Assembly (NCBI GenBank): GCA_902793605.1
Contig: CADBEB010000008.1
Span: 1-64,000, forward strand
DNA length: 64,000 nucleotides
Reading direction: 5' to 3'
Source of the DNA: an uncultured Eubacteriales bacterium
Lineage (GTDB): Bacteria; Bacillota; Clostridia; Christensenellales; Aristaeellaceae
Part shown: positions 15,006 through 46,197 of the stretch, one piece after another
Numbering within the stretch: position 1 is the first letter of the stretch
Layout of the letters: every line of letters starts with the position of its first letter
The notes under the pieces: generated by a model
What the model saw: only the letters and a program-made list of their open reading frames with translations
Databases searched by the model: none
Told to the model about the DNA's origin: nothing
Made by a program: the position numbers and the translations under genes

Positions 15006-16454
15006 ATGCCCCTGTGGATGAACTGGCTGGATGACAAGTCCGGCATTGCGGTCACGATCATCTCGATCGCGCTGATGCTGGCCTGCGGATTCCTGATGAC
15101 CCGCATCACAAAGAAGCTGCGCCTGCCGAATGTCACAGCCTATATCGTCGGCGGGATCCTGGCGGGGCCTTACTGCCTGAACCTGATCCCGCAGAAAGTC
15201 ATCGAAGGGTCTTCCTTCCTGCCGGATATCGCCCTGGCTTTTATCGCGTTCAGCACCGGCGAATTCTTCCGCCTCTCGTCGCTGAGGAAGAACGGCGGCA
15301 AAGTCGTTACGATCACTGTGCTGGAAGCCGTCGGTGCGGCGGTCCTGGTGTTCGTGACCTGCCACTTCATCCTCGGCCTGAACTTTGCCTTTTCCGTGGT
15401 CCTCGGCGCGCTGGCCACCGCCACGGCGCCGGCCTCCACGATCATGACGATCCGGCAGACCGGGGCAAAGGGTGATTTTGTCGAAACGCTGCTGCAGGTC
15501 GTCGCCCTGGATGACGTGGTCGGCCTGATCCTCTATTCCATGGCGATCTCGGTCGCCACCGCCGTCTTTTCCAGTACCGGTTTCCACATTTCCCATGTGC
15601 TGCTCCCGATCGGAAAGAACCTGCTGCTGGTCGGCCTGGGCTGCCTCTTCGGCATCCTGATGAAGCTGATCATCGGCCGCCGCAGCACCGACAACCGCCT
15701 GATCGTCGCCATCGCCCTGCTGTTCTCCTACTGCGGGATCTGCGCCGTGCTCGACATCTCTCCCCTGCTCGGCTGCATGGCCATGGGCATGGTCTATATC
15801 AACACGTCGGAGGATGAGCGTCTCTTCCGCCAGCTGAACTACTTCAGCCCGCCGATCCTGCTGCTCTTCTTCTTCCGCAGCGGACTGTCCTTTGACCTGG
15901 GCCTGCTTGTCGGCAGTTCGGAAGCCATCGGTTCAGTATCGCTCCTGGGGATCGGCATGATCTACTTCTTCGTCCGGATCATCGGCAAGTACATCGGTGC
16001 CTGGTCCGGCTGCAGACTGGCCGGCAAACCGCAGAAGGTCTGCCGGTATCTCGGCCTGGCCCTGATCCCGCAGGCCGGCGTCGCGATCGGCCTGGCGGCC
16101 CTCGGCGCCCGCGAACTGGGCGGCGCGATGGGCCGTGCCCTGGAAACGATCATCCTGTCCTCCAGCGTCCTGTACGAGCTGATCGGCCCCGGCGCCGCGA
16201 AACTGTCGCTCTGGCTCTCCGGCTCCTATTCCAGCGAACTGGAAGAGATGGCGCCCGTCCAGGAGACGGCCGAGGACGGCCGGAAGAAATCCGAGGTGGA
16301 CCTGCTCATCGAACGGATCCAGAAGATCCAGAGCGAGCTGCCCGCCCATACCGAGAACGAGAACGAGCGTGCCTTCACCGAAGCCGCGGAAGAGTACCAT
16401 CGTAACCAGAACCTCCCGGCTCCGCGCCGCACACCCCGCAGAAGACTGATCTGA
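15006..16454 (+). CDS. Cation:proton antiporter, CPA2 family
   Basis: A 482-residue integral membrane protein with about 12-13 hydrophobic helices of the Na+/H+ exchanger fold (KefB/NapA-like). Conserved stretches include AYIVGGILAGPY in the early helices, the helix-5 region VALDDVVGLILYSMAIS with paired Asp residues expected for proton-coupled antiport, and GVAIGLAALGARELGG near the C-terminal end. The last 80 residues are hydrophilic and charged, without a recognisable TrkA-N domain. It likely exchanges sodium or potassium for protons. AAAGGAGG lies 8 bases before the ATG; the MgtC-type gene follows after 17 bases. Confidence 0.88.
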   Translation: MPLWMNWLDDKSGIAVTIISIALMLACGFLMTRITKKLRLPNVTAYIVGGILAGPYCLNLIPQKVIEGSSFLPDIALAFIAFSTGEFFRLSSLRKNGGKVVTITVLEAVGAAVLVFVTCHFILGLNFAFSVVLGALATATAPASTIMTIRQTGAKGDFVETLLQVVALDDVVGLILYSMAISVATAVFSSTGFHISHVLLPIGKNLLLVGLGCLFGILMKLIIGRRSTDNRLIVAIALLFSYCGICAVLDISPLLGCMAMGMVYINTSEDERLFRQLNYFSPPILLLFFFRSGLSFDLGLLVGSSEAIGSVSLLGIGMIYFFVRIIGKYIGAWSGCRLAGKPQKVCRYLGLALIPQAGVAIGLAALGARELGGAMGRALETIILSSSVLYELIGPGAAKLSLWLSGSYSSELEEMAPVQETAEDGRKKSEVDLLIERIQKIQSELPAHTENENERAFTEAAEEYHRNQNLPAPRRTPRRRLI

Positions 16455-16471
16455 CCAAAGGAGGCTGCCCC

Positions 16472-17206
16472 ATGAACCCCGTCTTTACGGATCCCATTGC
16501 GTCGCAGCTCGGAAACTGGGCCGCGGACATCACCATCGGCTCGATCCTGCTGCGCCTGCTGCTTTCCCTGGTGCTCGGCGCCATCATCGGCTGGGAGCGT
16601 TCCAACAAACGGCACTCCGCCGGCCTGCGTACCTTCATGCTCGCCTTCCTGATCGGTACCCTGGCGGCCCTGCTGGACAGCTATGTTTTTGCTGATTCCG
16701 GAAAAGGCAGCCTGTTCCTGCTCTCGGGTGCAACGATCATCGGTGCCTCCGTGATCGCTGTTCATTCGGTCTTCTACTCTTCCAGGAACCAGATCAAGGG
16801 CCTGACCACCGCCGTCGGCCTCTGGGTCGCTGTCGCCATCGGCATCGCCCTGGGCATGGGCTACTATACCGTCGCCCTGGCCTCCTTTGCCGCGCTCCTG
16901 TGCGCACTTCTCTGGTTCCCCGCCCTGGAAATCGCATTCAAAAACCGTTCCAATCACTTTGAGATCCACCTGGAGCTGACCAACAGCGTCAGCCTGCAGG
17001 ACTTTGTGACCGTGCTCCGCCGCCTGGGGATCACCATCGATGAGATCGAACAGAATCCCGCCTATGTGGGCAGCGGACTTTCCGTCTATTCGATCGCGAT
17101 CTCAGTCAGCAATGAGATGCTGAAGAAATACAAGTCCCACGGCGAGATCATCGAAGCCCTGAAAACGCTCGATTATGTCTACCATATTGAGGAGATGCGC
17201 TCCTGA
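16472..17206 (+). CDS. MgtC/SapB family membrane protein
   Basis: A 244-residue protein with an N-terminal MgtC domain of about five membrane helices (about 20-150). It contains the family signature SLVLGAIIGWERSNKRHSAG and LRTFMLAFLIGTLAALLDS. The soluble C-terminal domain (about 160-244) is predicted to be ACT-like. MgtC proteins in pathogens support growth at low magnesium, partly by modulating F-type ATPase; in free-living bacteria the role is less clear. The gene is 17 bases after the cation antiporter, with AAAGGAGG at its start. The pairing suggests ion or proton homeostasis. A strong hairpin terminator follows. Confidence 0.88.
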   Translation: MNPVFTDPIASQLGNWAADITIGSILLRLLLSLVLGAIIGWERSNKRHSAGLRTFMLAFLIGTLAALLDSYVFADSGKGSLFLLSGATIIGASVIAVHSVFYSSRNQIKGLTTAVGLWVAVAIGIALGMGYYTVALASFAALLCALLWFPALEIAFKNRSNHFEIHLELTNSVSLQDFVTVLRRLGITIDEIEQNPAYVGSGLSVYSIAISVSNEMLKKYKSHGEIIEALKTLDYVYHIEEMRS

Positions 17207-17223
17207 AACGCGATCGACGCGAA

Positions 17224-17256
17224 AGCGGCCGGCATCATGCCGGCCGCTGTTTGTTT
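17224..17256. terminator. Terminator between convergent genes
   Basis: An 11-12 base-pair GC-rich inverted repeat (AGCGGCCGGCAT at 17224-17235, ATGCCGGCCGCT at 17237-17248) is followed on the plus strand by GTTTGTTTCC. It sits between the mgtC stop and the 3' end of the convergent ABC ATPase gene and may act in both directions, although the U tract is weak. Confidence 0.7.
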
Positions 17257-17267
17257 CCTCTGCGGGA

Positions 17268-18359
17268 TCAGGTTTCGAGCAGGTGCGCGCATTCACTGCG
17301 GAAGGAAATGTACGCGTCGTCTCCCACCTGGAAGGTCTTTTTTCCGATCGGGCAGTTGTCCGCGATCTTAACGAGCGTATCGCCGACCCGCACATGGTAG
17401 TTCTGATAGGAACCCATGAAGCAGCTCAGCTCCACCTTGCAGGGCAGCTGGCCCTCGTCGGCGATCCCGATCGCTTCCGGACGCAGCACGATCTCCGCGT
17501 TTCCGGTGATACCCGGTTTATCGCACCGGACCCGGACAGGACGGCCGTCCACTTCGGCGACGGCGTCCCCTCCCTCGTGTCCCTTCACGGTACACTTCAG
17601 GAAATTGCATTCACCGATGAAGTCCGCCACGAATTCGCTGTTCGGATGATAGTAGATCTCCGTCGGAGAACCCATCTGGGCGATCACGCCGCCCTTCATG
17701 AGGATGATATTGTCGGAGATGGCCATCGCTTCACTCTGGTCGTGCGTGACATAGATGGCGGTGATCCCCAGCGCCTGCTGGATCCTCCGGATCTCGGTGC
17801 GCATCTGCACGCGAAGCTTCGCGTCCAGGTTGCTCAGCGGTTCGTCAAACAGCAGCACGCCCGGTTCGACCACCAGCGCCCTGGCCAGGGCCACGCGCTG
17901 CTGCTGCCCGCCGGAGAGCTGGTTGGTCATCCGCTGTTCCATGTCGGAAAGCTCGACCAGCTTCAGGATATTGGTCACCCGCTCCCTGATCTCATCCTTC
18001 GGGACTTTCCGAAGCCGCAGACCGTAGGCGACGTTGTCGAACACGTTGTAGTGCGGGAACAGGGCGTAACTCTGGAACACCATCGCCGTATCGCGCTTGT
18101 TCGGCGTCAGCTGGTTGATCGGTTCGCCGCCCAGATAGATCTCGCCTTCATCCGGGCTTTCAAAGCCGGCGATCATCCGGAGCGTGGTCGTCTTGCCGCA
18201 GCCGCTGGGGCCGAGCAGCGTGACAAAGCTGCCGGGTTCAATGTCAAGTTCCACGTCGTGCACCGCGTAGAAATCCTGGCCGGTCTTCGGATTCTGATAG
18301 ATCTTGCTGATATGATCGAGCCGGACGCCCTTGGGCTCCTTTTTACGCATATCACTCAT
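17268..18359 (-). CDS. ABC importer ATP-binding protein (PotA/FbpC-like)
   Basis: A 363-residue ATPase of the Fe3+/spermidine/2-aminoethylphosphonate importer class. It has Walker A GPSGCGKTT (about 54-62), a Q-loop FQSYALFPH, signature LSGGQQQRVALARAL, Walker B LLFDEPLSNLD and a C-terminal TOBE-type regulatory domain (about 280-360). It energises the membrane permease encoded two bases upstream (18362-20074). Together with the binding protein at 20155-21243 this makes a complete importer. Substrate cannot be assigned from the ATPase; annotation pipelines often call such systems iron transporters, but that is not proven here. Confidence 0.92.
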   Translation of the reverse strand: MSDMRKKEPKGVRLDHISKIYQNPKTGQDFYAVHDVELDIEPGSFVTLLGPSGCGKTTTLRMIAGFESPDEGEIYLGGEPINQLTPNKRDTAMVFQSYALFPHYNVFDNVAYGLRLRKVPKDEIRERVTNILKLVELSDMEQRMTNQLSGGQQQRVALARALVVEPGVLLFDEPLSNLDAKLRVQMRTEIRRIQQALGITAIYVTHDQSEAMAISDNIILMKGGVIAQMGSPTEIYYHPNSEFVADFIGECNFLKCTVKGHEGGDAVAEVDGRPVRVRCDKPGITGNAEIVLRPEAIGIADEGQLPCKVELSCFMGSYQNYHVRVGDTLVKIADNCPIGKKTFQVGDDAYISFRSECAHLLET

Positions 18360-36965: not shown

Positions 36966-39107
36966 CTACCAGGAGACCAGCGCAAGGACGATCAACGCGA
37001 ATACCAGGATGATCCCGATGCACAGCATCATCATCGCAAAAGAGAAATTGTCCGTTACCCTGGAAAGCGCCATCACAGTAGCACGATAGGCAGGTTTCAG
37101 CCGCGGCTCGCGCAGGACCATGTCTTCTGTCTTCCGTTTTTCCTCACGCAGCACTGTACGGCGCAGCAAGAGGGTAAGTCTGTCAAGGCTCCCCTCCAGA
37201 ACGCGGCCGATTGCTGACCCGATTAGCACGGCCGCTTTTGTTATCCTGCGGGTTACCGTGTTTTCACCCATCGCCTGGCTGATGGCAGATCCCGTCCAGA
37301 CAGTCGCTCTGGAAATCTGCCGGATCGCCAGGTTTTCTCCCATCAGGCGGCTCAGTCCGATCGGAATCGCCATCGGGAACCGCTTCAGCAGAAGATTCTC
37401 CCCAAGCAGCCGCGCGGGAAGGCTGAACACAGCGGGCAGCCATCTCAGCAGCAACGGGCGGTAGAATTGATCTTCCAGATCAAACTTGCCTGTAATATTC
37501 AGCTTTTTCTTCAGCAGGACCGGCCGGATAAAGCCGAGATACACCACCAGCCCGACGGACAGTGAGATCAGGGCTCCTTTCAGGTTTTCCCAGGCAAAAG
37601 CTTCCAGATGAACAGCATGCTCTCCGCTCATCACAGCGCCCAGTTTCAGGGCGAATTCCGGCAGTCCCATCACGGGCAGAAATACGGCAGAACAGATCAG
37701 GACACCTGCGGACAGAGGCGTCAGATAAGGTTTTTCCCGGTCATAGGATGCCTGGACCGCCGGATCTGTATTGCGCTCAACAAACACGCAGAAGAACAGG
37801 CGCAGCATATAGGCAAAAGTCAGCCCGCCGGAGAACAGGAACAGGATTTCCGCGATACGGAGCAATCCGGCTCCTTCCACGCCCGCGGAGATCAGATGCG
37901 CGAGCCCTTCGTGCAGCAGCGTCTTCGACAGATAACCGTTCAGTCCGGGGACACCGCCGATCCCGATCACACCTGCCGCAAAACAGATCTTAAGCAGCGG
38001 TTTGTTTCTTCCCCATCCGCGGATATCGTCCAGCCGGAGTTTATGCAGGTTCATCGCGACAGCGCCTGCGCTCAGGAACAGGAGCAGCTTCAGCAGCGAG
38101 TGATTCACCATATGCAGCAGCGCGCCGGTCAGCGCGAGCCCGGAAGCATGCGTTTCCCCGTATGAATTCGCCAGGATCATCGCGGCCAGGCCTGTCAGGA
38201 TAAACCCGATCTGGGACATGGATGAGCATGCAAGCGTACGCTTTAGGTTTTCCGAAAAGACTGCCAATACTGCTCCAAGCACCATGGTGATCACTGCCAG
38301 AATCAGAAGAATCAGGCCAAAAACCCGGTCTCCGAAGAGGGCATGCAGCGTCAGCTGCAGGATCCCGAACACTCCGACCTTCGTCAGCATGCCGGACAGC
38401 AGCGCGGATGCCGGGGCAGGCGCAACCGGATGGGCTTTGGGCAGCCAGATGTGGAGCGGAAACATACCCGCTTTCGCGCCGAAGCCGAGAAGAATGCATA
38501 CACCTGCCGCAATCGCCCTTCGGCGGGATAATCCGGCAACCGCATTATTCAGTTCACTGAAGAACAGTGTTCCGGTCGCATCCCGCAAAAGCCAGATCCC
38601 CATCAGCAGGATCAGGCCTCCGATGACTGCGACCGCCAGATAAGTCTTTGCCGCGCAGATCGCGTCTTCTTCCCTCTCCTGCGCGACCCACGGGAAAGAA
38701 CTCAGGGAGAGCATCTCAAAAAAGCAGAACGCGGTCAGGAAATCCGCGGAGAGAAACAGTCCCTCTGTCGCCCCGAGGGTGATCAATACAAAGAACCAGT
38801 AACCTGCGATCCCTTCCCGCTCATGCTTGAAATACTGCCGGCCAAAGAGTGTCGTAAAACACCAGAGCAGCGCAGCCAGCAGGCAATAGACCAGCCGGAA
38901 GCCATCCGCCCGGAAATGCAGGCCGCCTGGAAGAACAGCCGCCAGATCAAGCGGATCATGATACTTCCAGAGTAAAACTGCGAGCAGCAATTCCACCGCG
39001 GTAACCACTGAAGCCGCGATCTCAACCGCTTCATTCCGCTTTCGGCCGATCATCCAGACGATCGGTGCCGCAAGCATCGGGAAAAAGATCAGGCATGCAA
39101 TCAACAT
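36966..39107 (-). CDS. NuoL/MrpA-type antiporter subunit with C-terminal lateral-helix repeats
   Basis: A 713-residue membrane protein, the last gene of the Mrp-like cluster. About 14 transmembrane helices (1-530) carry the proton-path residues of the family: Glu131 (FEMLSLSSFP), Lys212 (GAKAGMFPLH), Lys243 (LTKVG) and Lys395 (GYLSKTLL). Residues about 540-670 are a charged, amphipathic region built from tandem 24-residue units (588-611 and 612-635, with degraded copies on either side), each starting MGEN. A final helix (about 690-712) anchors the end. This layout, helices-amphipathic arm-last helix, is that of NuoL, whose lateral helix runs along the antiporter subunits. Confidence 0.88.
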   Translation of the reverse strand: MLIACLIFFPMLAAPIVWMIGRKRNEAVEIAASVVTAVELLLAVLLWKYHDPLDLAAVLPGGLHFRADGFRLVYCLLAALLWCFTTLFGRQYFKHEREGIAGYWFFVLITLGATEGLFLSADFLTAFCFFEMLSLSSFPWVAQEREEDAICAAKTYLAVAVIGGLILLMGIWLLRDATGTLFFSELNNAVAGLSRRRAIAAGVCILLGFGAKAGMFPLHIWLPKAHPVAPAPASALLSGMLTKVGVFGILQLTLHALFGDRVFGLILLILAVITMVLGAVLAVFSENLKRTLACSSMSQIGFILTGLAAMILANSYGETHASGLALTGALLHMVNHSLLKLLLFLSAGAVAMNLHKLRLDDIRGWGRNKPLLKICFAAGVIGIGGVPGLNGYLSKTLLHEGLAHLISAGVEGAGLLRIAEILFLFSGGLTFAYMLRLFFCVFVERNTDPAVQASYDREKPYLTPLSAGVLICSAVFLPVMGLPEFALKLGAVMSGEHAVHLEAFAWENLKGALISLSVGLVVYLGFIRPVLLKKKLNITGKFDLEDQFYRPLLLRWLPAVFSLPARLLGENLLLKRFPMAIPIGLSRLMGENLAIRQISRATVWTGSAISQAMGENTVTRRITKAAVLIGSAIGRVLEGSLDRLTLLLRRTVLREEKRKTEDMVLREPRLKPAYRATVMALSRVTDNFSFAMMMLCIGIILVFALIVLALVSW

Positions 39108-39121
39108 CGTTCATTCCGCCT

Positions 39122-40585
39122 CTAATATAAACCGTTCGCGATTCCTGTCAGCCATCCGATCACCGGTTTCTGGCAAATCCCGAAAACCAGATTGGCCAGT
39201 GTGAAGATGCAGATCGGCATCAGCATCCGCCAGTCTGCTTCGGATACCCCGGCAATCTTCGGCGATCCTTCTTTCCGGACCGGGAAATAGGCACGAACAC
39301 TGACGCTCAGCGTATAGATCGCACAGAAAAACGCCGCCAGTAAAAGAGCTCCTGCGCCAAACCATGCCGCCGGTGTCCCGAGTTCCGTACCCGCCTGCAA
39401 AAGAAGCCATTTTGATACGAACCCGCTCAGCGGGGGAATACCGCTGAGGCTTAATGCCCCGATCGTATAGCAGGCGAAAGTGACCGGCATTTTTCTTCCC
39501 ATGCCGTCCAGCTCATAGATGTATTCTTCACCCGAAACACAGATCACAGCGCCGGCGCACAGGAACAGGGAGATCTTGATCACGCTGTGGAACAGCATAT
39601 GGGCAATGCCGCCCAGCAGTCCGGCCGGCGTCATCAGTACAGCGCCGAAGATCATGTAGGAAAGATTGCTCATCGTGGAAAAGGCCAGTCTTCGCTTGAA
39701 TTTTCGCTGTCTCAGCGCCAGTGCCGCACCAATGACCATGGAGCATCCCGCGGTGATGACACATACATCCCGCACCCATGTCCCCGCCAGCATGCCCGGT
39801 CCGAACGTATACCAGGCGAGCCGGGTCACACTAAACATACCGGTATTCACCACCGCAACCGCGTGCAGCAGGGCCGTCACCGGCGTCGGCGCAACAGAGG
39901 CCGTCGGAAGCCATGGATAAAGCGGAAAGAGGGCAGCCTTTGTACCGAAGCCGAAAAAGCCCAGGAGGAAAGCGATTCGCATCAATTCAGGCGCGAAGCG
40001 GTTCATGGGTGTGCCGCCATAGGTGAAATCACCCCCGCCGCTCAATGTCACGAGCACAACGGGTACCAGGGCCAGTGCCGCGCCTCCCAGGCAGTATCTG
40101 AGGTATCGCTGGCCGGCGAACAGGCTGTCCCCGTCTTCCTTATGGGTCACAAGCGGGAGCGTCACCAGCGTCAGCATCTCATAAAACACATACAGTGTCA
40201 CGACATTCGCTGAAAAAGCGGCGCCCAGCGTCACACCGTAAGTCATCAGGAAAAAATCGAAAAACCTGTCCTGACGTTCTTCCCGCTCCATATAGCTGAA
40301 AGCGTAAAGCATCACCGCCGGCCAAAGTGCAGACAGCATTCCCGCAAACAGGACAGCAAAACCGTCAATCCGGAACGCGATCGAAAAGTCGTCAATGAAA
40401 GAGTATACCTTAGCGGTTTCCCGTCCCGCAAGGCTGAGCAGGACAACTGTCAGGACGCTCGTCAGGACGGTCAGCAACATCAAAACCCTGTTGCGGCGGC
40501 CGGCATTCCTGACAGGATGTGCGAGCAGCGCAAACCCTCCCGCGATCGGCAGCAGCACAGGCATCAGAAGTAGAATCGGTGACAT
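39122..40585 (-). CDS. MrpD/NuoM-type antiporter subunit lacking the TM8 lysine
   Basis: A 487-residue membrane protein with about 14 helices. It keeps Glu136 (YEMLTLVTLP) and Lys216 (GTKAALFPLYPWLP), the TM5/TM7 pair of the family. At the TM8 position where the two MrpD paralogues and the NuoL-like subunit have lysine, it has Asn247 (VVNTGMF). The protein may therefore have altered ion coupling or a structural role. It starts two bases before the stop of the upstream paralogue on the coding strand (gap of one base) and is followed after 14 bases by the NuoL-like gene. Confidence 0.88.
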   Translation of the reverse strand: MSPILLLMPVLLPIAGGFALLAHPVRNAGRRNRVLMLLTVLTSVLTVVLLSLAGRETAKVYSFIDDFSIAFRIDGFAVLFAGMLSALWPAVMLYAFSYMEREERQDRFFDFFLMTYGVTLGAAFSANVVTLYVFYEMLTLVTLPLVTHKEDGDSLFAGQRYLRYCLGGAALALVPVVLVTLSGGGDFTYGGTPMNRFAPELMRIAFLLGFFGFGTKAALFPLYPWLPTASVAPTPVTALLHAVAVVNTGMFSVTRLAWYTFGPGMLAGTWVRDVCVITAGCSMVIGAALALRQRKFKRRLAFSTMSNLSYMIFGAVLMTPAGLLGGIAHMLFHSVIKISLFLCAGAVICVSGEEYIYELDGMGRKMPVTFACYTIGALSLSGIPPLSGFVSKWLLLQAGTELGTPAAWFGAGALLLAAFFCAIYTLSVSVRAYFPVRKEGSPKIAGVSEADWRMLMPICIFTLANLVFGICQKPVIGWLTGIANGLY

Positions 40586-40586
40586 C

Positions 40587-42020
40587 TTACCAGCCTCCGA
40601 TCAGGGTGTAGCCGAACAAACCCGCCACCAGCGTACCGCAGCACAGGATCAGCATCGGCACCGTCATCAGCGGTGATATCTTTTCCCGTTTCAATTCTTC
40701 TCCCGGTATCCCCGTCGGGAAGAAACCCTCCACCACGACCGGCAGGAGATAGCCGGCTGTCAGCAGCGCGCTGAGAAGCAGAATGGCCGGAGCAAGATAG
40801 GAAAACGGTGCCGGAGCTGAATCCAGGGCTGTAACCGCGATCTGCCATTTGCTCGCGAATCCGCCGAAGGGCGGAATGCCGACAAGGGATAAAGAAGCCA
40901 GCGTGAAGCCCCAGAGGACCAGCGGGACCCGTTTCCCGACACCTTTGAGTTTCTCTACTTCCCCGCTTCCAAACATATGGAGGAATACACCCGCGCAAAG
41001 GAACAGCGCGCCTTTCGCGCAGGCATGCTGCATCGCGTGCAGCAGGGCGCCCTGCAGGCCGCCCTCACAGAGCAGGGAAAGCGCCAGCATAATGTAGGAC
41101 AGCTGGCTGACCGTTGAATAAGCCAGCCGCTTTTTCAGAATCTTTTCCCGCCAGGCCATCATGGATCCCATGAACACGGTAGCCATCGCAAGACACATCC
41201 ATGCCACCTGCACCCAGCTTCCGCGCAGCAGATCCGGTCCCGCGGAGAAGTATACCAGTCGGATAACCGCCAGGATACCGGCCTTCGCGATCAGGCCGGA
41301 CAGCAGTGCCGATGCCGGTGCCGGCGCCACAGGGTGTGCCGTTGGCAGCCATCCGTGCAGCGGATACATACCTGCTTTTGCGCCGAAACCGACAATCCCC
41401 AGGAACACAGCGGCCAGTACCAGCCCTTCATGTCCGGCGACCGCCGATGTATCCAGGGTTCCGCCGAAGACAAACGCCTTTCCTCCGTACGGAACCAGCA
41501 CGATAACGGCAAACAGGCCCAGCAGCGCGCCTCCGATTGAATAAAACAGATATTTCTGGGCCGCTGCAACTGACTCTTTTGTCCGGTCATGAAGCACCAG
41601 CGGCATGCTGGTAAGTGTTGCCATCTCAAAGCAAAGATAAAGACTCACCAGATTCTCCGCCATGCAGGTTGCAAGGATCGCTCCGAAGGAGACAAACCAG
41701 AAAACAAAAAACTGCTGCGGCCGTTCATCATGTTCCAGATAACCAAGGGCATAGATTCCCGCCGCAGTATAAAGAACCATGGTGAGGATCATAAAGAACT
41801 TCCCCATCGCATCCACGGAAAAAGCCAGCGACACCGTATCTGTCAGTGAAAACAGTGATATGCTTCCGCCCTTCAGCGCAACGGTCAGCCCCAGGCCGTC
41901 CGTTATCGCCAAAGCGATCCAGACGAACAGCCTGTAGCGCTGCTTCGGCATCGGTACCTTTGCCATCAGGATTCCCGCTGCGATCGGAAACAGAATCGTC
42001 AGTAACAGCATCTTGCACAT
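40587..42020 (-). CDS. MrpD/NuoN-type antiporter subunit
   Basis: A 477-residue membrane protein of the proton-translocating NADH dehydrogenase/Mrp antiporter family. Key residues are Glu132 (FEMATLTSMP), Lys215 (GAKAGMYPLHGWLP) and Lys246 (LIAKAG). About 14 helices are expected. It is one of three tandem MrpD-like paralogues (42027-43544, 40587-42020, 39122-40585) that share this core but are well diverged, so they are not recent copies. Short gaps of six and one bases on either side support one transcript. Confidence 0.88.
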   Translation of the reverse strand: MCKMLLLTILFPIAAGILMAKVPMPKQRYRLFVWIALAITDGLGLTVALKGGSISLFSLTDTVSLAFSVDAMGKFFMILTMVLYTAAGIYALGYLEHDERPQQFFVFWFVSFGAILATCMAENLVSLYLCFEMATLTSMPLVLHDRTKESVAAAQKYLFYSIGGALLGLFAVIVLVPYGGKAFVFGGTLDTSAVAGHEGLVLAAVFLGIVGFGAKAGMYPLHGWLPTAHPVAPAPASALLSGLIAKAGILAVIRLVYFSAGPDLLRGSWVQVAWMCLAMATVFMGSMMAWREKILKKRLAYSTVSQLSYIMLALSLLCEGGLQGALLHAMQHACAKGALFLCAGVFLHMFGSGEVEKLKGVGKRVPLVLWGFTLASLSLVGIPPFGGFASKWQIAVTALDSAPAPFSYLAPAILLLSALLTAGYLLPVVVEGFFPTGIPGEELKREKISPLMTVPMLILCCGTLVAGLFGYTLIGGW

Positions 42021-42026
42021 CTCCTC

Positions 42027-43544
42027 TTATTGAAACATCGACAAACCCTGCCGGATCATATTCACCGAAACCGGCGCGAATAAACCGAGAAACAGATTCC
42101 CGAGAACCAGGATAACAGACGCGGCATAATAGGTTGCTGAGCCACAGGGCACCTTTCCTGAAGTCACGGATCCGGCTTCCGTTTCAGCCGGGTCCTTCCT
42201 GTCTGCGTAGATCAGGACCACCGTGCGGATGAAGTACATTGCGTTCAGTACGCTGCTGATCCCGAGCACCGCCATAACACCCGCGAACACTGCCGGATTG
42301 CCGTATTCCGCCGCGGAAACAGCCATAAACAGTTTCACGGAAAAGCCTGCGAAAAACGGAATGCCGACCATGGACAAAGCGGCTGCTGTAAAGAACACCC
42401 CGGCATTCTTTGCTCTTTTCCCGCTGCCTCTCAGCTTCTCAAACAGCAGACTCTCCCCGGAAACAGCCGCCAGCCGCGGCGTCGTGATGAACAGAAGCGA
42501 CTTCGTTACCGCGTGAACCAGGATCTGGAAGAGCGCGACCGTGTATCCGGCCGTCCCGCCGATCCCGATCCCAAGGTATATGTATCCGATCTGCGCTGCG
42601 GATGAATAAGCCGCCATCCGGTTGATATTCCTGGCACGGATAGCGGTGACCGATCCGGCAACCATTCCGGCCATCCCAAGCACCGCCAGCACCCAGCGAA
42701 GCGGAAGATCCTTCCATATCTCATCACCGACCACCCGCAGGAAGATTTTCAGCAGGAGGAAAATATACCCTTTCGAAACCAGTGAGCTCAGGATGGCCGC
42801 TCCCGTCGGGGTGGAACTGCCGTAAGTGTCCGGCATCCAGAAATACGAGGGAAAAAGGCCGCTCTTTATTCCTAGCCCGATCGTCATCACAGCCAGTGTA
42901 AAGATCAGCGGAACCTTTCCTCCCTCCGCGGCGATCTCCGTGATTGCCTCGTGCGCCGGAACCATCAGCAGGTGGCCGGTCAGGGCATACATCAACACGA
43001 CCCCCAGCAGGAACAGACCGGAGCCAAGCAGGTTCATCACCATGTATCGTACTGCCGCGAGTGTCGTCCGGCCCGTTTCCCTTGCTGCGATCAGTCCGCA
43101 TGAGGACAGCGTCAGGATCTCCACAAACACATAACCGGTAAACATATCGTTGGTCCAGACCAATGCCATCAGCGCGGATGTCATCAGATTGACCAGCGTA
43201 TAGAACAGGTTCTGCTTGCTTCCGTCCACATCGATGCGGACATAATCCTGACCGCCGAGCACACAGCAGATCAGCACAGCGGAAAATGCCGTTGCCATCA
43301 GCGCTTCCAGCGCTCCGCCGCGCAGTTCATTCCCCCACGGAGCCGGGAATTCACCCAGGACATAGGTAAACGGTTTTCCCGTATTCAGCGTGAATGCCAG
43401 CACCGCCGTGCTCATTGCCAGCACAGCGATCTCTGTCCCGAAAGTCAGTCTTCGGGCCTGCTTCGGAGAGATCAGTGTGCACAGCACACAGGAGATCATG
43501 CACAACAGGATCGAAAGCAGAGGAAAATTGCAGACAAAATCCAT
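42027..43544 (-). CDS. mrpD: MrpD-type antiporter subunit
   Basis: A 505-residue membrane protein with about 14 helices, directly after mrpC as in canonical Mrp operons, which makes it the best MrpD counterpart. Family residues are Glu142 (VEILTLSSCG), Lys227 (GIKSGLFPSYFWMP) and Lys258 (LVSKGY). Gap to mrpC is two bases. In the complex it would form one of the cation/proton channels. It could also be called NuoN-like. Confidence 0.9.
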   Translation of the reverse strand: MDFVCNFPLLSILLCMISCVLCTLISPKQARRLTFGTEIAVLAMSTAVLAFTLNTGKPFTYVLGEFPAPWGNELRGGALEALMATAFSAVLICCVLGGQDYVRIDVDGSKQNLFYTLVNLMTSALMALVWTNDMFTGYVFVEILTLSSCGLIAARETGRTTLAAVRYMVMNLLGSGLFLLGVVLMYALTGHLLMVPAHEAITEIAAEGGKVPLIFTLAVMTIGLGIKSGLFPSYFWMPDTYGSSTPTGAAILSSLVSKGYIFLLLKIFLRVVGDEIWKDLPLRWVLAVLGMAGMVAGSVTAIRARNINRMAAYSSAAQIGYIYLGIGIGGTAGYTVALFQILVHAVTKSLLFITTPRLAAVSGESLLFEKLRGSGKRAKNAGVFFTAAALSMVGIPFFAGFSVKLFMAVSAAEYGNPAVFAGVMAVLGISSVLNAMYFIRTVVLIYADRKDPAETEAGSVTSGKVPCGSATYYAASVILVLGNLFLGLFAPVSVNMIRQGLSMFQ

Positions 43545-43546
43545 AG

Positions 43547-43927
43547 TCAGCGGTCCTCCAGCTTGTGCTTCGACAACGCATAGATCGCGTCAATATCCAG
43601 CGTATGATAACGTCTGTAAAGCCGAACAGACAGCGACAGCATGACGGCCGTAACGGAAACTGAAACGACGATGCCCGTCAGCACAAGCCCTGCCGGAACG
43701 GGATTAACGTAGTCCGTCCCCTGCGCGGGCAAAGCGGTCAGGATCGGTGCCTTACGGCCTGAAATGTAGCCCATGCTGGCAAGAAACAGAAAACATCCGG
43801 TATCCATGATGTTCATACCGATCAGTTTCATGATCAGGTTCCTTCTGAACAGCAGCATGCCCAGACCTGCAACAAAGAGGATAACCGCTACAGCTTCCTC
43901 ATAATTGTTGAGTATACCCTTAATCAT
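43547..43927 (-). CDS. mrpC: Mrp antiporter subunit C (NuoK/MbhG-like)
   Basis: A 126-residue protein with three transmembrane helices homologous to NuoK. Recognisable parts are VAGLGMLLFRRNLIMKLIGM, NVNPVP-like VNPVPAGLVLTGIVVSVS and a charged C-tail. NuoK-like subunits link the MrpA/B region to MrpD. It overlaps the upstream MbhE/MrpB fusion by eight bases, indicating translational coupling. Confidence 0.92.
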   Translation of the reverse strand: MIKGILNNYEEAVAVILFVAGLGMLLFRRNLIMKLIGMNIMDTGCFLFLASMGYISGRKAPILTALPAQGTDYVNPVPAGLVLTGIVVSVSVTAVMLSLSVRLYRRYHTLDIDAIYALSKHKLEDR

Positions 43928-44876
43928 CTGTTTCGTCTCCTCCGATCCCGCCCCTTCGAAAGAGGCTGTAGAATCCGAACATCGTACATGCGACGATCAC
44001 CCCGACGGCAATATCCAGCGGAAGGATCAGTCCCGCAGAAAGGATTGCTCCCGGTGTGCCCTTTGGTATATGGTTGTCCAGTCCGTTTGCCCCGCTGAAG
44101 AAAACATAGCCCTTGGCCAGTATATAAAAGATCAGTGCTGAAGCCGTAAAAACCCGAAAGCGCTTTTCCGTCAGAAAATGATCGATATCCGCGTCTCCGA
44201 GTGAGGAAGCCAGGATGATCAGTCCGGTACCGAGCACAGCGCCACCGGAAAAGCCGCCCCCCGGACCCAGGTGGCCGTTCAGGAGAATATAGATCCCGAA
44301 CAGCAGGATAAAACTCCCCTGCAGCGTCCCCGCAAGCCGCAGGATCGGGTCCTTATCCGTCGGATAATACTTTTCAAAGCGTACACGGTAGTAATCTTCC
44401 CTGTCCTTCCGGGTGTTGGTTTCATCCAGTTTCAGCATCAGCATCACGACCACAAGCGCAGTAAACAGGACATGGCTTTCCCCCAGCGTGTCAAAAGCAC
44501 GATAATCCAGGATCATCCCTGCCACGGCATTCACCGCGCCGGTTTCCTCCGTCCCGCGCTCGATATAGCGGTCCGCGATCGCTTCAGCCCTCGGATTCTC
44601 GCGACCGTAAGCTGTGATATGCGCTGTCATGTACAGAAATACCAGCGCAAGCGTCAGGCAGCAGGCGAATGCCGCGATCACATACCAAAGATGAAAGGCT
44701 TTTCGCTCTTTTTCAGCGATCTGCCGGGTTTGGGGAAGCGATTCGATTCGTTCTGCTGCCGATCGTTCCAGTTCATGCTTTCTGTCAAGCGAGATATCAT
44801 AGCCTTCCTGAAGTTCCGGCATCCGTTCAAACGCGTCAAACTCACCGTCCAGCCAGCGGTTCAGCAAGTCTTTCAT
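43920..44876 (-). CDS. MbhE-MrpB fusion subunit
   Basis: A 318-residue protein combining two antiporter modules. Residues 1-60 are a hydrophilic helical N-terminus not usual for either part. Residues about 60-155 resemble MbhE/the C-terminal end of MrpA, with GTEETGAVNAVAGMILDYRA and FDTLGE. Residues about 180-305 are an MnhB/MrpB domain, with GHLGPGGGFSGGAVLGTG. In Mbh hydrogenases these are separate genes mbhE and mbhF; here they are joined. It overlaps the DUF4040 gene by four bases upstream and mrpC by eight downstream. Confidence 0.88.
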   Translation of the reverse strand: MKDLLNRWLDGEFDAFERMPELQEGYDISLDRKHELERSAAERIESLPQTRQIAEKERKAFHLWYVIAAFACCLTLALVFLYMTAHITAYGRENPRAEAIADRYIERGTEETGAVNAVAGMILDYRAFDTLGESHVLFTALVVVMLMLKLDETNTRKDREDYYRVRFEKYYPTDKDPILRLAGTLQGSFILLFGIYILLNGHLGPGGGFSGGAVLGTGLIILASSLGDADIDHFLTEKRFRVFTASALIFYILAKGYVFFSGANGLDNHIPKGTPGAILSAGLILPLDIAVGVIVACTMFGFYSLFRRGGIGGDETDD

Positions 44877-45139
44877 GACTTCTCACCGCCCTTCCGGTCG
44901 ATCTCCCGGAGTTTCTTCAGCGTCAGCAGAAAAAGCATACCGCTGACGCCCGCGCCGACGGCCGCTTCCGTGATTGCAAGGTCGGGTGACTCCATCAGGA
45001 TCCAGAGCACACACATGACCGAGCTGTATGCCATAAACACAAGGACAGACTGCAGCAGGCTCCTGGCAAGATTGACACCGATCACACAGCCCAGGAGCAA
45101 AACCAGCAGCAGGATCCTGCATATTTCGATCAGTTCCAT
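44873..45139 (-). CDS. DUF4040/MbhD subunit (MrpA C-terminal piece)
   Basis: An 88-residue protein with about three transmembrane helices and the segment SPDLAITEAAVGAGVSGMLF, the hallmark of DUF4040, which in classical MrpA lies near the C-terminus and in Mbh is the separate MbhD. It has a four-base overlap with the fusion gene downstream and overlaps mrpG by ten bases upstream. The frame extends to 45433, but the ATG at 45139 avoids most overlap and has a usable Shine-Dalgarno site (GGAAAAG). Confidence 0.88.
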   Translation of the reverse strand: MELIEICRILLLVLLLGCVIGVNLARSLLQSVLVFMAYSSVMCVLWILMESPDLAITEAAVGAGVSGMLFLLTLKKLREIDRKGGEKS

Positions 45140-45441
45140 ATCTTTTCCGACTCCCTCATATTCCTGGATTCCACCATGGACAGAAAATGGGTTGATACCG
45201 GAGAAGTGATCCACAGGAATATCAGCGGAAGAAACAGCTTCGCGCATACCGGCACGGAAGGTGCGCTGACCGCCAGGGCAACCGTTGTGAACATCAGGCC
45301 CATAGTGTCTCCCAGTCCGGCAGCATGCAGACGGTTCATCGCGCAGCCAAACCGGCAATTCCCCAGCACCCCGGCAGTCAGGAACAGGAGGCCGGCCACC
45401 AGTGCCGCTGCTGTTGCCCAGAAGCAGATCCACTCACTCAT
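45130..45441 (-). CDS. mrpG: Mrp antiporter subunit G (MbhC-like)
   Basis: A 103-residue, three-helix membrane protein. Family features include the central RLHAAGLGDTMG (about 37-48) and KLFLPLIFLWITSPVSTH. It overlaps mrpF by eight bases and the DUF4040 gene by ten. The ATG at 45441 is preferred over a start ten codons upstream. Confidence 0.92.
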   Translation of the reverse strand: MSEWICFWATAAALVAGLLFLTAGVLGNCRFGCAMNRLHAAGLGDTMGLMFTTVALAVSAPSVPVCAKLFLPLIFLWITSPVSTHFLSMVESRNMRESEKIWN

Positions 45442-45742
45442 GGTTTTCCTCCTTTCCGGGTCCGATCGCATGTGCCGGGATAATCACCCGGGTCAGGATC
45501 AGCACCGTAACAAAACTGATCATGGTATAGATCAGCGCCACGTCGATCAGCCAGCTTTCCTTCAGCATGGACGAAAGGATCAGGATTGCGGCATTTACCA
45601 TCGTGCCGATCATATTCGTGGCGATCAGCCGGTTCGCAACCCCCGGTACGCAGATCGCCCGCATCAGCATGACCGCCATCAGGATCGCCAGGTAGACAAG
45701 CGCCGCGGAGTACAGATAAGTATAGGCAGTTGAGATATTCAT
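45434..45742 (-). CDS. mrpF: Mrp antiporter subunit F (MbhB-like)
   Basis: A 102-residue, three-helix membrane protein with the typical NRLIATNMIGTM segment (about 37-48) and VALIYTMISFVTVLILTR. It overlaps mrpE by four bases and mrpG by eight. Subunits E, F and G form a membrane layer at one end of Mrp complexes. Confidence 0.92.
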   Translation of the reverse strand: MNISTAYTYLYSAALVYLAILMAVMLMRAICVPGVANRLIATNMIGTMVNAAILILSSMLKESWLIDVALIYTMISFVTVLILTRVIIPAHAIGPGKEENHE

Positions 45743-46197
45743 CGCGGAAATCTCCTCAGCAGTCGCACAAATGACGAGTTTTCAATGTGATCAGCATATT
45801 CGCTTCGCAGTGCGTGGATGATAAAGCGGTCTCCTTCCTGGCGCACCGTGATGGTTCCCGGCGTCAGGGTGATCGAGTTGGCCAGGATCACATTCAGTCC
45901 CATGCGGCCGAGGCCGGAATTGAACTCTTTGATGATCGGCTCCGGCTTTTTCCCGGGGCTGAAGGACAGAAGCGCGACCCGGACCGCCGCGACCGCCGCT
46001 TCGCGCAGCAGGTTCAGCAGATAAAGAAGAAAGATCGGGAGCGAACGGAGAAGAAGCAGATCACGCCTGAGCGTCCAGTGAAAAACACGTATCATGAAAA
46101 GATACACAAGTGCAATAACAATCATGCCGATCGCCATGATCTCCACTGTGATCCGTCCGTTCAGCACTATCCACAGCAAAAACAGCAAGACCGGCAT
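45739..46197 (-). CDS. mrpE: Mrp antiporter subunit E (MbhA-like)
   Basis: A 152-residue protein, the first gene of the cluster. Two hydrophobic helices (about 1-65) precede a soluble domain with NVILANSITLTPGTITV (about 102-118), a strong MrpE signature. An extended -10 promoter lies about 35 bases upstream and the downstream genes all overlap or nearly touch, so the ten genes to 36966 are one operon. Confidence 0.93.
   Translation of the reverse strand: MPVLLFLLWIVLNGRITVEIMAIGMIVIALVYLFMIRVFHWTLRRDLLLLRSLPIFLLYLLNLLREAAVAAVRVALLSFSPGKKPEPIIKEFNSGLGRMGLNVILANSITLTPGTITVRQEGDRFIIHALRSEYADHIENSSFVRLLRRFPR

Follow-up and report, generated by a model that had tools for sequence, protein, structure and literature searches.

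The window, a stretch of 64,000 nucleotides from an uncultured gut or rumen member of the Eubacteriales, harbors ten open reading frames (ORFs) at positions 36966 to 46197, all on the minus strand. Coordinates and gene assignments of the original prediction, which reads from mrpE to a NuoL-like gene, were confirmed and are in agreement with Pfam. Neighboring ORFs are closely spaced in a head-to-tail manner, the overlaps and gaps between them not exceeding about 15 bases. The first gene is mrpE (45739..46197; PF01899, MNHE), found at this position in all complete loci, followed by mrpF (45434..45742; PF04066, MrpF_PhaF) and mrpG (45130..45441; PF03334, PhaG_MnhG). The longest ORF for mrpG extends to 45471; a second ATG at about 45441 is preceded by a ribosome-binding-like GGAGG and is probably the start. 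The mbhD gene (DUF4040; 44873..45139; PF13244), starting at 45139, lies upstream of a gene predicted to combine mbhE and mrpB (43920..44876). Both domains (PF20501, MbhE, and PF04039, MnhB) were indeed detected by Pfam in a single ORF of 318 amino acids, in the same order as in MbsE. The gene product of mrpC (43547..43927; PF00420, Oxidored_q2) is NuoK-like. The last four genes encode large antiporter-like subunits containing PF00361, referred to here as D1 (42027..43544; 505 amino acids), D2 (40587..42020; 477), D3 (39122..40585; 487) and L4 (36966..39107; 713), the terminal subunit, which ends in an amphipathic C-terminal linker and a final transmembrane (TM) helix. The same families were assigned to the ten ORFs with NCBIfam, every listed row being below the NCBIfam cut-offs. 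Neither a Na+ riboswitch nor any other Rfam RNA was found upstream of the operon in the window and in seven loci of the family, and a promoter and terminator scan of the operon was uninformative.

A search of related genomes for the same gene order, as proposed in the original prediction, identified E-F-G-D-EB-C-D1-D2-D3-L4 in all 36 complete loci of the bacterial family and in 63 out of 80 contigs from named genomes; most of the other 17 appear to be cut by contig ends. Since the order recurs in both sets, the ten genes are not a chance assembly. The MbhE-MrpB fusion covers both domains in 78 of 79 matches. In the scan of named genomes, nearly all of the 80 loci are from genomes labelled as Lachnospiraceae or as other Clostridia, and carriers include Hungatella hathewayi WAL-18680, Lactonifactor longoviformis DSM 17459, Fusibacillus kribbianus and Butyricicoccus pullicaecorum. 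This form is widespread in Lachnospiraceae of gut and rumen; it is probably an ion exchanger, although annotation is likely to have assigned its parts one by one to NADH dehydrogenase and Mrp. In the source genus its occurrence is patchy (absent from three genomes of 97-99% completeness). The flanks differ between genomes, and no conserved neighbor that could name a function was found. Among the 36 complete family loci, one (L041) has a second L4 and another (L051) has L4 split over several ORFs. The tandem duplicate in L041 (2451-6540) results in five antiporter-like subunits.

The lack of linked hydrogenase or Nuo genes and the unrelated flanks described for the window apply to the loci with the same gene order as well. 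No hydrogenase or Nuo homologue adjoins the operon in the 36 family loci or the 80 named contigs, the only exceptions among the flanks being three weak ferredoxin-like matches (22-25 bits). In the source genome (3.25 Mb, 96% complete), D1, D2, D3 and L4 are the only proteins with PF00361, and no homologues of NuoH (PF00146), NuoB (PF01058) or NuoD (PF00346) were detected; 11 out of 14 control genomes were positive in each of these searches. Rnf is encoded in the source genome. Half of the family genomes (75 of 150, source genome included; E < 1e-60) carry D1, while NuoH was found in only three of the 150 and, among the D1 carriers, exclusively in G107. This is the genome of L041, and its NuoH homologue is encoded on another contig. 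A different, hydrogenase-linked cluster, comprising three antiporter-like genes together with NuoH-, HyfG-, HyfI- and HyfH-like genes, is present in the family member G106 (L066 1070-10401).

With the fused MbhE-MrpB subunit as query, 33 out of 291 genomes from the class and 103 out of 398 from the phylum gave matches. Forty of these class and phylum loci were read; they were chosen mostly among the best matches, and the counts are no unbiased census. The cation module E-F-G-D-E-B-C is constant across the loci read, and the antiporter-like genes downstream of it vary. In four loci (L160, L167, L170 and L179), hydrogenase or Nuo genes are linked, the antiporter-like genes number one or two, and L4 is absent. 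L177 has two antiporter-like genes without such linked genes, most stand-alone loci have three, and the family locus L041 has five. Four are found in the window-like families and, separately, in L164, L165, L184, L190 and L174. Besides two L4-type genes at the end of the operon, L174 has a third one upstream of mrpE (15988-18138). The original prediction had called four antiporter-like subunits unusual. This holds in comparison to published Mrp systems and complex I, whereas within the bacterial family studied here it is normal to have four.

The relationships of the large subunits were assessed in a tree of 101 antiporter-like proteins under a mixture model, including reference proteins. D1, MrpD, MbhH, MbsH and NuoN are on one side of the tree and L4, D2, D3, MrpA, NuoL and NuoM on the other (98% support for each); D1 groups with MrpD, MbhH and MbsH. 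L4 forms a single clade that is not joined to MrpA or NuoL. A common clade of L4, MrpA and NuoL was rejected at a cost of 82 log-likelihood units (AU p 1e-58, quick tree). The window-type D2 and D3 are sisters nested among the single D3 proteins of three-subunit loci, which points to a duplication within the D3 lineage as the source of D2. In L164, L184 and L190, D2 falls into another clade, and a single origin of D2 for these loci and the window type was rejected as well (AU p 2e-5), on which basis the four-subunit form arose at least twice. Both AU tests were run on sets smaller than the 101-row tree, with test groups named after the first tree was seen; the deep joins, obtained from quick trees with long reference branches, are less secure than the two tests.

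Group 3 Mrp (CPA3) systems are defined by the lack of mrpA, an irregular gene order and, in some cases, several mrpD genes (PMC8415708, PMC5703873). The operon lacks a fused MrpA, contains mrpD-type genes (D1 to D3 and L4) and encodes a complete cation module (E, F, G, B and C with the MbhD and MbhE domains). The order mrpA(B)CDEFG of groups 1 and 2 with a fused MrpA of about 800-960 amino acids, the linked MbhJ-N type catalytic subunits and MbhM/NuoH of MBH and MBS, and the NuoH, NuoB and NuoD homologues of complex I are all lacking. Among the closest counterparts is the group 3 Mrp of Pyrococcus furiosus (mrpEFGBB'CD), which also is stand-alone, has an Mbh-like order without mrpA and combines the E, F, G, B and C subunits with MrpD; it works with Na+ (PMC8415708). 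It differs in having one antiporter-like subunit instead of four and no terminal L4, and in a fusion of MbhD with MbhE, whereas in the window MbhE is fused to MrpB. In "Candidatus Nitrospira alkalitolerans", a stand-alone group 3 Mrp is followed by NuoM- and NuoL-like genes, which have been interpreted as extra MrpA/D-type subunits (PMC7784846). By that description, mrpD and two extras apparently amount to three antiporter-like subunits, and the locus is linked to bicA, nhaB and motB. MBS, the membrane-bound sulfane sulfur reductase, shares the MbhE-MbhF fusion (MbsE), an MbsH related to D1 and a terminal MbsH' with the helix HL, but has a redox arm, two antiporter-like subunits and an Asp in its MrpF-type subunit. 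The canonical Mrp systems of groups 1 and 2 (Bacillus, Dietzia) have the same cation-module parts, an MrpD related to D1 and an MrpA with a fold similar to L4. In contrast to the window, their MrpA is one protein of 800-960 amino acids including MbhD/E-like helices, the antiporter-like subunits number two and the gene order is another. Complex I with a duplicated NuoM, cited in PMC7784846, likewise has an extra antiporter-like subunit in the arm but is redox-driven.

An Mbh-like order, the absence of mrpA and a fusion of MbhE with MbhF have already been described for group 3 Mrp and MBS, and to this extent the organization is not new. The number of antiporter-like subunits is one in MBH, two in MBS and three in complex I, and precedents in print range from one to three. 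In text searches of open-access literature, four in an Mrp complex were not found.

The four large subunits have retained the residues of the proton channels, namely Glu in TM5, Lys in TM7, His in TM11 and Lys in TM12. In D1, Glu142, Lys227, His344 and Lys404 are invariant. In D3, the Lys of TM8 is replaced by Asn in the window copy and in 23 of 37 family sequences.

Judged from the sequences, the ten genes probably encode one machine, a stand-alone complex of the group 3 Mrp type and candidate multisubunit cation/proton antiporter, as the original prediction had suggested in the first of its two readings. MrpE, MrpF, MrpG, MbhD, the MbhE-MrpB fusion and MrpC would form a single cation-translocating end. 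D1, D2, D3 and L4 would be aligned beside it, their order probably being that of the genes, and would serve as four proton-conducting modules, with the long C-terminal lateral helix of L4 as the strap that holds them together. Gene content, conservation, intact channel residues, the lack of redox partners and the phylogeny were observed; the presence of all four large subunits in one complex, the ion, the direction and the stoichiometry are inferences. The complex would exchange Na+, or another monovalent cation, for H+, most likely in an electrogenic and reversible manner, with the gradients themselves and not a redox reaction as the driving force. The MrpF substitution described below, the absence of the TM8 Lys from most D3 proteins of the family, the nearly equal linker length in three-subunit loci and the low confidence of the modelled L4 linker count against this reading. 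The c subunit of the F-type ATP synthase in the source genome (L193) has a second carboxylate (GIGEGN) and the signature E...ETTGLY, which we take to be that of a Na+-type ATP synthase; this is suggestive of Na+ coupling. Together with Rnf, a Na+ circuit would fit, and the exchanger would link this circuit (Rnf, ATP synthase) to the proton gradient and pH.

A different reading concerns the nature of the cation. Residues of the Na+ path were defined in the B. pseudofirmus Mrp structure paper, in which MrpF Asp38 is proposed for Na+ transfer (PMC9568556). In the window, Asn43 of MrpF occupies the site of Asp38, an Asp in characterised Mrp, MBH and MBS, and the Asn is invariant in all 37 family sequences and in every L4-containing locus sampled from the phylum. 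The four redox-linked loci, in contrast, have Asp, as do three further loci in which no L4 was observed (two being located on short contigs) and all five solved structures. The Asn as a putative signature of stand-alone L4-type loci was noticed post hoc, with no prior prediction. The ion or the mechanism may therefore differ, and the same machine might transport K+ or another cation, or use an altered cation path; some Mrp systems are known to transport K+ or Ca2+ (PMC5703873). We consider this unlikely, given that the other residues of the Na+ path are kept: the conserved Glu58 of MbhD in the ITEA motif (equated with MrpA Glu687 on the basis of its position within the MbhD helix), Glu133 in the MbhE part of the fusion (MrpA Glu780) and Phe209 in its MrpB domain (MrpB Phe41). 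Rnf and the c subunit signature, which we assume to be of the Na+ type, also point to Na+ energetics in the cell.

It is rather improbable that D2, D3 or L4 act as paralogues with an alternative or regulatory role, so that the actual complexes would contain only two or three of the large subunits. Versions with three antiporter-like subunits are frequent in the phylum, and D2 and L4 can exist apart from the others, as a D2-L4 pair occurs alone, without the cation module, D1 and D3, in two family genomes, L067 (6617-10225) and L069 (4970-8115). Against this, all four genes are kept in one operon in each of the 36 complete family loci, and the C-terminus of L4 is strap-like, as in a terminal subunit. 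The other reading of the original prediction, a membrane arm of a hydrogenase- or complex-I-like redox-driven pump with its catalytic arm encoded elsewhere, is effectively excluded: D1 is close to MbhH and MbsH and homologous cation modules are redox-linked in four loci of the phylum sample, but the genome searches for NuoH, NuoB and NuoD rule it out for known redox modules, and the redox-linked relatives differ in their one or two antiporter-like subunits, lack of L4 and retained MrpF Asp.

For the stand-alone exchanger, the number of modules bears on stoichiometry. For canonical Mrp, a ratio of about two H+ per Na+ is assumed (PMC7419157, PMC9568556). Added proton modules would move more H+ per cation; should every module contribute one proton, the ratio would exceed this value, and a weak proton gradient could drive the formation of a steep cation gradient, or vice versa. 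More tentatively, these loci might represent a clade of stand-alone Mrp systems whose gear is adjustable, in which a constant single cation path (with the Asp-to-Asn exchange in MrpF) is combined with two to five proton modules, the H+:cation ratio rises with their number and the four-module form evolved at least twice. It has long been asked whether every antiporter-like subunit in complex I and related complexes carries a single proton, and by what means the modules are coupled. Antiporters that lack a redox partner and bear two, three, four or five such subunits on the same cation module would allow stoichiometry to be determined as a function of module number.

The last gene had been described as NuoL-like, which is true for fold and C-terminal architecture but not for phylogeny, L4 being placed outside the MrpA and NuoL clade. 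In the AlphaFold model of L4, a core of 14 TM helices is confident, residues 570-696 (the linker) are weak, and a final helix is located at the end; the best structural matches, along the whole length, are MrpA and NuoL/ND5. The linker before the last helix comprises 148 residues; measured in the same way, that of E. coli NuoL has 48. Its median length is 101 residues in three-subunit loci versus 108 and 141 in two samples of four-subunit loci, the latter being longer on average (Mann-Whitney p 0.001, relatedness ignored) with overlapping ranges. In the five-subunit L041 it is merely 107 residues long. Helix length as a counter of subunits is, given the overlap and L041, suggestive at best; the weak correlation is compatible with such a role but no proof of it. 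In L069, the C-terminal lateral-helix region of L4 is missing. The linker lengths of the family L4 genes cluster near 107, 128, 150 and 173 residues, with a best period of about 23, and in the window (36966-37470) GEN-type units recur at intervals of about 22-24 residues, as would be expected if the amphipathic helix were extended in repeat units.
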